Of a DNA stretch of 64,000 bases, positions 15,268 to 17,015 are shown in pieces; position 1 is the first letter of the stretch; the number at the start of each line of letters is the position of its first letter. The position numbers and the translations under genes were made by a program. The DNA is from Candidatus Meridianibacter frigidus (GTDB lineage: Bacteria; Vulcanimicrobiota; Vulcanimicrobiia; Vulcanimicrobiales; Vulcanimicrobiaceae). Location: positions 1-64,000 of the forward strand of contig QHBJ01000034.1 in the NCBI GenBank assembly GCA_003243975.1, read 5' to 3'. The notes under the pieces are model-generated. The model saw nothing but the letters and a program-made list of their open reading frames with translations, was not told the origin of the DNA and made no database searches.

Positions 15268-15296
15268 AAAAAAAAAGCCGCCCTGCGGCGGGCGGC
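15268..15296 (-). terminator. Strong Rho-independent terminator
   Basis: On the minus strand GCCGCCC pairs perfectly with GGGCGGC around a 6-base loop and is followed by nine T residues (plus-strand A-run 15268-15276). It ends transcription coming from the sigma/ZAS-Ogt operon or from a small RNA at about 15300-15410. It lies upstream of the PHP gene, which must therefore have its own promoter. Confidence 0.85.
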
Positions 15297-15505: not shown

Positions 15506-16252
15506 CTAAACCTTGGCGACGCCCGTCCACCCCTCCATCTTGAGAATCCGCGCCTTCATCTCCACACCGTAGCCGTAGTTGTGCAGTTCACCCGAGGAAT
15601 CGACGACGCGATGGCATGGGAAAAGAAGTGGAAGCGGATTGCGCGCCATGACTTGGCCGACCGCGCGGGCCGCTTTTGGGCGGCCGATTTCCTGGGCTAC
15701 CCACGCGTAGGACCGCACCTGGCCCGGCGGGATCTGGGCCGCCTTTTGCAGGGCCGCCTGCTCGAAGTCGGTCAGGTCGCTCAAGTCGACGCTCTCGCTC
15801 TCGACGTGCCACGTGCGGAAGAAACGTTCCATAGTGGCTCGCAGCCAAGCCGGCGACTCCGACCTCTGCACGGGACGCTTCAGGCGCCGTTCGACATGCT
15901 CGCGCATGACCTCGAATGAGTCTCCTCTACCGATACCGATGAAGACAATGCGGTTCTCTTTGAATCCCACGTACAACTTGCCGATAGGTGAGGTGACGGG
16001 AGCCAGAAAGATAGGCGCACAGCGCGTCTTTGCACGAATTTCAGCGATGTGCTCCACGACTTTCTTGGTTAAATCGCACGAGGGTTCCGGTGCGCTCAAA
16101 CAGGAGAGACAGAATGCCACACCTTCGTACTCTTCGTACAACTCTTGACACGGTGGGCAGTTACGCAAGTGCAGCCGCACTGCTTCGCGCAGCGTCGGCA
16201 TGCCTTCGCTGCGCAACTCGTCCCAGAGCGCTTCGACTTCACGACAACGCAT
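15506..16252 (-). CDS. Anti-sigma zinc-finger (ZAS) domain fused to O6-alkylguanine-DNA alkyltransferase
   Basis: 248 residues in two parts. Residues 1 to about 70 are a ZAS/zf-HC2-type anti-sigma domain: Cys3, then His28-x3-Cys32-x2-Cys35 (HLRNCPPC). Residues about 80-245 are a full Ogt/MGMT: an N-terminal APVTSPIGKLYVGF region, the helix-turn-helix QVRSYAWVAQEIGRP, the Arg finger in ARAVG and the active site PCHRVV with acceptor Cys213, ending in a KMEGW helix. Ogt repairs O6-alkylguanine by irreversible transfer to the cysteine. The start ATG has AAGGAG about 9 bases upstream and overlaps the ECF sigma gene by 14 bases. Inference: alkylation of Cys213 could alter the ZAS domain and free the sigma factor. 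Confidence 0.9.
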   Translation of the reverse strand: MRCREVEALWDELRSEGMPTLREAVRLHLRNCPPCQELYEEYEGVAFCLSCLSAPEPSCDLTKKVVEHIAEIRAKTRCAPIFLAPVTSPIGKLYVGFKENRIVFIGIGRGDSFEVMREHVERRLKRPVQRSESPAWLRATMERFFRTWHVESESVDLSDLTDFEQAALQKAAQIPPGQVRSYAWVAQEIGRPKAARAVGQVMARNPLPLLFPCHRVVDSSGELHNYGYGVEMKARILKMEGWTGVAKV

Positions 16253-16862
16253 GAATGGATGCTCCTTGCGGAAAGATGCGCCCGATTTGTGGACCCAGAA
16301 TGCGGCGCAGAATTCGGACGGCGCGGTGAACGTGAGATTTTACCGTACCGATCGGCTGATGAAGGATCTCGGCGATTTCGGGATGGCTGCGGCCTTCGAT
16401 GAAACGGAGTGTGGCAGCCGCCCGCAGGTGCATCGGCAGAGAAAGCAGGGCGCGCTCGACGAGCACCATGTCGGCATTTCGTTCCACAATGGCTTCGGGC
16501 TGCGCCGGGCCTTCGTGAGAACCGCGCAGCAAGGCCTCGGGATCCGCCAGAGCGTCCAAGGCCACGTTCGTGGGTTTCTTTGAGCGCAGGCGGTTTCGGG
16601 TCACGTTGAGTGTGATGGTGTAAAGCCAGGGCTGCAAACGCAGCTCGGCACGCTGTTGCGGCGACATCTTGCCTAGCGCGCGAAACGCTCGCACGAAGGC
16701 ATCCTGCACGATCTCTTCGGCGTCTTCGCGGTTTCCGGTCATCCGCAAAGCAAAGCCGTACAAGCGTCGCTGATAATCCTCGACGATCGATTCAAAGCGC
16801 TCGGTGCTCGGCGCGGGTTTGGCTACCTTGAGCCGGCCTGCCGGATGCACGGCACGTGGCAC
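16239..16862 (-). CDS. ECF-type RNA polymerase sigma factor
   Basis: A 207-residue sigma-70 family factor with region 2 (YGFALRMTGNREDAEEIVQD; helix binding -10 DNA and core polymerase) and region 4 (ALLSLPMHLRAAATLRF to GTVKSHVHRA; -35 binding helix-turn-helix). No region 3, so group IV/ECF. I prefer GTG 16862 to ATG 16898 because GGGAG sits 6 bases before the GTG. Its end overlaps the ZAS-Ogt gene, the usual arrangement of a sigma and its anti-sigma. It probably directs its own operon and other alkylation-related genes, but I could not identify the promoter by eye. Confidence 0.9.
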   Translation of the reverse strand: MPRAVHPAGRLKVAKPAPSTERFESIVEDYQRRLYGFALRMTGNREDAEEIVQDAFVRAFRALGKMSPQQRAELRLQPWLYTITLNVTRNRLRSKKPTNVALDALADPEALLRGSHEGPAQPEAIVERNADMVLVERALLSLPMHLRAAATLRFIEGRSHPEIAEILHQPIGTVKSHVHRAVRILRRILGPQIGRIFPQGASIHALS

Positions 16863-17015
16863 GTTATACTCCCTGCTCAGGGGTGCGAGCGCGCTCATAC
16901 GCGTCCCAACACCGCTGAGCGCGGTAAAGTTTCACGCGCCCTTCGCAGGTCCCGCAAAGCGGGCGGGGCGAACTTCGACTCATGAAGCCCAGCCGGCTTG
17001 CAGTAAGATTTTTAG

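Follow-up and report, generated by a model that had tools for sequence, protein, structure and literature searches.

In the adaptive response of E. coli, Ada accepts a methyl group irreversibly on a cysteine, and the methylated protein activates its own gene (PMC4437013). In class I anti-sigma domains, helix 1 binds sigma4 of the ECF sigma factor and helix 4 binds its sigma2 (PMC7406223). An association between ECF sigma factors and alkyltransferases has been listed for one group, ECF122 (type from Cellulomonas), for which the Casas-Pastor classification, as given in PMC8999054, enters 6-O-methylguanine methyltransferase neighbours, no anti-sigma factor and an unknown mechanism. At the locus analysed here, an ECF sigma gene is coupled to a gene in which a zinc anti-sigma (ZAS) domain is fused to a DNA alkyltransferase (Ogt). 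This pair appears to be undescribed: a text search of the literature, covering open-licence papers, returned no ZAS-Ogt fusion. An earlier reading of the locus, made from the sequence alone, had known of no described system, which holds for the fusion within those papers but has to be qualified by the listing of ECF122 with methyltransferase neighbours.

The window, meaning the whole 64,000-nucleotide stretch of DNA that was analysed, comes from a 1.95-Mb genome (43 contigs, 96% complete) of an uncultured soil bacterium of the Eremiobacterota. The two genes and their associated elements are as follows.

15506-16252, minus strand: ZAS-Ogt fusion gene (248 aa), a putative alkyltransferase anti-sigma factor, from the open reading frame, domain search and homolog conservation
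16028-16252, minus strand: N-terminal ZAS domain, residues 1-75, from the invariant HX3CX2C motif plus C3, zf-HC2 and a profile match to RsiW
16244-16246, 16169-16171, 16157-16159 and 16148-16150, minus strand: putative zinc ligands C3, H28, C32 and C35, respectively
15530-16003, minus strand: two-domain Ogt/AGT module, residues 84-241, from a Pfam profile search (DNA_binding_1, PF01035, E=6.9e-29), the AlphaFold2 model and the invariant active site
15614-15616, minus strand: predicted nucleophile Cys213, within PCHR, from the invariant active site
16239-16898, minus strand: ECF sigma factor gene, 219 aa from the ATG at 16898, from a Pfam profile search (Sigma70_r2, E=1.8e-16; Sigma70_r4_2, E=4.2e-13), with SigW as closest solved structure
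16862, minus strand: alternative GTG start of the sigma gene, preceded by GGGAG at 16869-16873
16908-16934, minus strand: predicted autoregulatory ECF promoter, with -35 TGAAACT (16928-16934), N17 and -10 GTT (16908-16910), 9 nt upstream of the ATG, from family conservation
15268-15296, minus strand: terminator-like hairpin followed by a T run, 3' of the two-gene operon, from a consensus match only

The coordinates of the two open reading frames agree with the 14-base overlap given in the sequence-only reading. That reading had also placed a zinc motif at His28, Cys32 and Cys35 and a complete Ogt active site at PCHR with Cys213. Both were positioned correctly, the first finding support in the ZAS family and gaining a likely fourth ligand, Cys3, that had been missed, and the second consisting of residues that proved invariant among homologs. 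The sigma ATG at 16898 is in frame in most homologs and out of frame in about six, in which a later start is needed. Between the ATG and GTG starts (16860-16898 in the window), many homologs carry ACTCC...GGAGT, two elements that could pair and so hide the ribosome-binding site.

A search of 149 genomes of the phylum Eremiobacterota recovered the fusion, at full length and about 47-72% identity, from nearly every genome of family f1, the few without it being incomplete assemblies, and from all four genomes of family f2. The other families among these genomes yielded no full-length match, and the best matches in plasmid records included no ZAS-Ogt fusion. The sigma and ZAS-Ogt pair is a core feature of these two families. 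At all 83 homologous loci the sigma gene lies directly upstream of the fusion, with an overlap of 14 nt at 66 loci and 11 nt at five; at the remaining 12 the genes are 0-8 nt apart, and in genus g37 they are non-overlapping. C3, H28, C32 and C35 are invariant at 83 of 83 loci, and PCHR is retained in each of the 81 full-length fusion copies. Invariant ligands and an invariant PCHR, together with the recurrence of the 14-nt overlap at 66 of 83 loci, argue that the pair is not a product of chance. Variation in the zinc motif or at Cys213, which the sequence-only reading had named as evidence that would refute its proposed switch, was sought, and both were invariant in all homologs examined.

Taken singly, the window sequence scores just under the Pfam cut-off for zf-HC2 (E=1.1e-3); within the fusion family, 16 of 22 members match, the best at E=2.6e-5. 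In the PDB, a profile of the N-terminal domain found RsiW at E=6e-4, with a weak match to 3hug (E=0.03), and the solved structure nearest to the sigma factor is SigW, the partner of RsiW. The domain combines HX3CX2C and a fourth ligand near the N-terminus with profile similarity to known anti-sigma domains and, at 83 of 83 loci, adjacency to an ECF sigma gene. Residues W10 and D11 of helix 1 are invariant among homologs, as are helix-4 positions, and the domain is predicted to bind the sigma factor. The AlphaFold2 model of the fusion, computed without zinc or sigma, has low confidence in the ZAS domain (pLDDT about 37-54).

The Ogt part of the model (pLDDT mostly 75-93) matches two-domain AGT structures, among them those of M. 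tuberculosis, human MGMT and E. coli Ada-C, with E-values down to 8e-11. Active-site residues Y182, N205, C213, H214 and E240 are invariant in the 81 full-length homologs and R196 is kept in 99%, with P212-V216 and Y226 as further invariant residues. Mean column conservation reaches 83% in the Ogt DNA-binding domain, the highest of any part of the protein, compared with 71% in the ZAS domain. The PCHR motif, the Tyr, Arg, Asn and Glu catalytic residues and the two-domain fold of Ogt/AGT proteins are all present, and a working DNA alkyltransferase is the activity that we propose for the fusion. The same genome encodes a canonical Ada-type protein with PCHR (contig C43, L018). A further Ogt-like protein of this genome, encoded on contig C5 (L019), has PCAR in place of PCHR.

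Upstream of the sigma gene, in regions that have otherwise diverged among loci, the pattern TGAAACY-N17-GTY (N16 and N18 included) was found about 10 nt before the ATG at 75 of 82 loci, against a mean of 0.04 expected after shuffling, with CGAAAC or CGCAAC as -35 variants in some genera. It is absent from a small subclade (L072, L078 and L081-L083). The element is laid out like an ECF promoter, and the fact that it precedes the sigma gene points to autoregulation. Scanning 99 family genomes with the strict promoter form recovered the sigma/fusion operon and recurrent second targets, the leading one being a gene for an HtrA-like S1C/PDZ protease without an evident signal peptide. Most of 30 examined orthologs, across many genera, have a site just before the ATG of this gene, and the source genome carries one on contig C42 (CGAAACT-N-GGTTTG...ATG); none was found in the orthologs looked at from family f3, which is without ZAS-Ogt. 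The gene uvrB carries a site in three genera (G061, G086 and G087), a count of sites located through the motif itself and not a frequency among uvrB genes; in the stretches of the source genome that were examined, uvrB was not found. Similarity of the motifs suggests that the same sigma factor may read the htrA and uvrB sites. Among the targets predicted for one genus only are an aldo-keto reductase, a TatAC operon and a zinc alcohol dehydrogenase; neither alkA nor alkB was found among the predicted targets.

When 1.58 Mb of the source genome was scanned with a weight matrix, sites were no more frequent than in reversed controls, and strict patterns in the same genome exceeded their controls slightly or not at all, so the predicted regulon is probably small; in composition it would differ from the classical Ada set. 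The suggestion of the sequence-only reading that repair genes are induced is weakly supported, by the promoter at uvrB in three genera, but the most conserved target outside the operon is the HtrA-like protease and the 1.58-Mb scan showed no excess of sites. Single matches in the source genome (an RND pump, DUF5069 and others) were rejected as targets, since candidates were accepted only with conservation. On contig C19 (149165-149202, L112), a promoter-like site at the DUF5069 gene matches the sigma promoter in geometry. Five genomes of genus g32 (L151-L155) have an ECF-type site, GTGAAACC...GCGGTTAAATC...ATG, at a lipoprotein gene, and one genus has its htrA-like gene about 3 kb from a canonical ada (L241; G057, contig C41, 5800-11600).

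A sister arrangement, here class B as opposed to class A with ZAS-Ogt, was also found. In a relative from the Chloroflexota (L015), an ECF sigma gene overlaps a gene that fuses Ogt to an Ada zinc domain (PF02805, 3.9e-11) and lacks a ZAS motif. This layout recurs in 29 of the best 30 Chloroflexota matches, all with PCHR and the Ada cysteines; at one locus (L211), no sigma gene was found in the short upstream stretch examined. Class B was also detected in Eremiobacterota paralogs and in Actinomycetota (Rubrobacter and Nonomuraea), with a split form on a Streptomyces plasmid. Its Ogt domains group with those of ZAS-Ogt in a single clade (100/99), separate from canonical Ada and from ordinary Ogt, that also contains an Ogt of family f3 with no sigma gene seen nearby. 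In the sigma tree, classes A and B are joined against other ECFs at only 83/94, on long branches, and this grouping was not taken as proof. Class B thus shares with ZAS-Ogt an Ogt clade, an adjacent sigma gene and a near-identical promoter right before the start codon (TGCAACC-N15/16-GTGTT), but differs in having a C-terminal Ada zinc domain and, in place of the ZAS domain, a short N-terminal extension. A resemblance of this extension to ZAS helix 4 is suggestive only, the match being weak (63% probability) over a stretch that includes the first Ogt strand. Downstream of Chloroflexota class B genes (L212-L235), the next gene often encodes an EamA-type transporter; its start codon is spanned by a conserved element, TACACT ... 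TTGGACCAnnnnnCTATGCCAA, that resembles an operator palindrome.

In composition, class B is an Ada-like repair protein with a separate sigma factor in place of the AraC domain; ZAS-Ogt is the variant in which the repair protein bears a recognisable anti-sigma domain. A direct link of an ECF-Ogt pair with alkylation repair is provided by plasmid 22 of Tsukamurella tyrosinosolvens (L424, 132-2904), where ogt, an ECF sigma gene, a second ogt, a PF09859 oxygenase gene and alkB form an operon, the Ogt falling outside the class A/B clade. Together, the phylogeny of the sister class and this ogt/alkB operon strengthen the idea of an alkylation sensor.

The explanation that we consider somewhat probable is an autoregulated ECF sigma factor held by a soluble anti-sigma factor whose working alkyltransferase serves as the sensor, alkylation freeing the sigma. 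In the undamaged cell, the ZAS domain would hold the sigma factor. Upon damage, the Ogt domain would take an alkyl group irreversibly onto Cys213, and the modified, destabilised fusion, or its degradation, would free the sigma to transcribe its own operon, yielding fresh anti-sigma/repair protein, and to drive a small set of stress genes, including that for the HtrA-like protease and, in some genera, uvrB. Autoregulation would restore repair capacity, after which accumulating unalkylated fusion would shut the response off; more speculatively, removal of the alkylated and unfolded fusion could fall to the HtrA-like protease. What we read from sequence are the domains, invariant residues, gene coupling, promoter conservation and an Ogt ancestry shared with the Ogt-Ada_Zn class; from these we infer binding of the sigma, alkylation as the signal and the direction of the switch.

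The main rival, to which we give a minor but real share of belief, is that the ZAS domain itself senses oxidation or disulphide stress or zinc loss, as in RsrA and RshA, with Ogt as a carried-along repair enzyme that is produced abundantly once the sigma is active. Redox stress is the usual signal for the ZAS domains of soluble anti-sigma factors (PMC8999054, PMC7406223), the extra Cys48, Cys51 and Cys59 that follow the zinc motif could take part, and an HtrA-like target suggests protein stress. However, these cysteines are kept in 85, 81 and 63% of homologs, respectively, and redox sensing by them was downgraded because they are not invariant. Class B, without the ZAS zinc motif, nonetheless keeps Ogt and the sigma and adds the Ada alkyl-accepting domain, so the common partner of the sigma factors is Ogt and not zinc; the variable cysteines and this persistence of Ogt both weaken a redox role. 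The single-genus targets (the reductase, TatAC and the dehydrogenase) would suit an Ogt domain that senses other cysteine-reactive electrophiles, or one whose non-specific DNA binding tethers the anti-sigma factor to DNA, repair being secondary. We hold this to be improbable: the whole alkyl-transfer machinery is kept, including the DNA-contact residue R196, which exceeds the needs of a mere thiol sensor, and uvrB is among the candidate targets.

The pair might also be a matter of genomic convenience, in which the repair enzyme is co-transcribed with the sigma but its anti-sigma domain, by now a vestige, does not regulate it. Loss of the overlap in genus g37 and the single-sequence zf-HC2 score would fit such a vestige, but the zinc ligands, W10-D11 and helix-4 positions are invariant over tens of genera, which argues against it and leaves it very unlikely in our judgement. 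Against alkylation sensing itself count the Ada-type protein in the same genome, the lack of a predicted alkA or alkB target and the fact that the HtrA-like protease is no known alkylation-repair gene. On the strength of the conserved pair, its promoter, the shared htrA and uvrB sites and the Ogt clade of the sister class, an Ada-like sigma/anti-sigma switch is nevertheless the best-supported reading, still unproven, towards which we lean slightly. More tentatively, and with confidence a little short of even, a suicide DNA-repair enzyme would here be the anti-sigma factor, each irreversible repair freeing one sigma, and with the Ogt-Ada_Zn class would make up an alternative to the Ada response that is based on sigma factors and spans phyla.

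If the proposed switch is true, DNA alkylation damage itself may turn genes on, stoichiometrically, one repair event freeing one sigma factor. Among known systems, RsrA/RshA and RsiW resemble the fusion in HX3CX2C with an upstream Cys and in a gene adjoining that of an ECF sigma, but they are without an alkyltransferase domain, RsrA/RshA sensing disulphide or oxidative stress and RsiW being membrane-bound. In RpoE-ChrR of Rhodobacter (ECF11), which responds to singlet oxygen, the C-terminus of ChrR is a cupin-like domain, whereas that of the fusion is Ogt and no cupin-like domain is found there. ECF122 shares with the pair in the window an ECF sigma factor and a conserved methylguanine methyltransferase neighbour, but the neighbour here carries a ZAS domain while ECF122 is, in the description compared, listed without an anti-sigma factor; by the same listed description class B may correspond to ECF122, and for such ECF groups with unexplained methyltransferase neighbours the switch would offer a mechanism. 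The fusion resembles Ada in that its alkyltransferase would double as repair enzyme and sensor, under predicted autoregulation. It differs from Ada in lacking the zinc/phosphotriester domain (a profile search gave no match to PF02805, which is present in class B) and the AraC-type DNA-binding domain (a domain search found no such helix-turn-helix), and its proposed output is a released sigma factor, which would make it a second solution, outside the usual model bacteria, to the problem that Ada solves.
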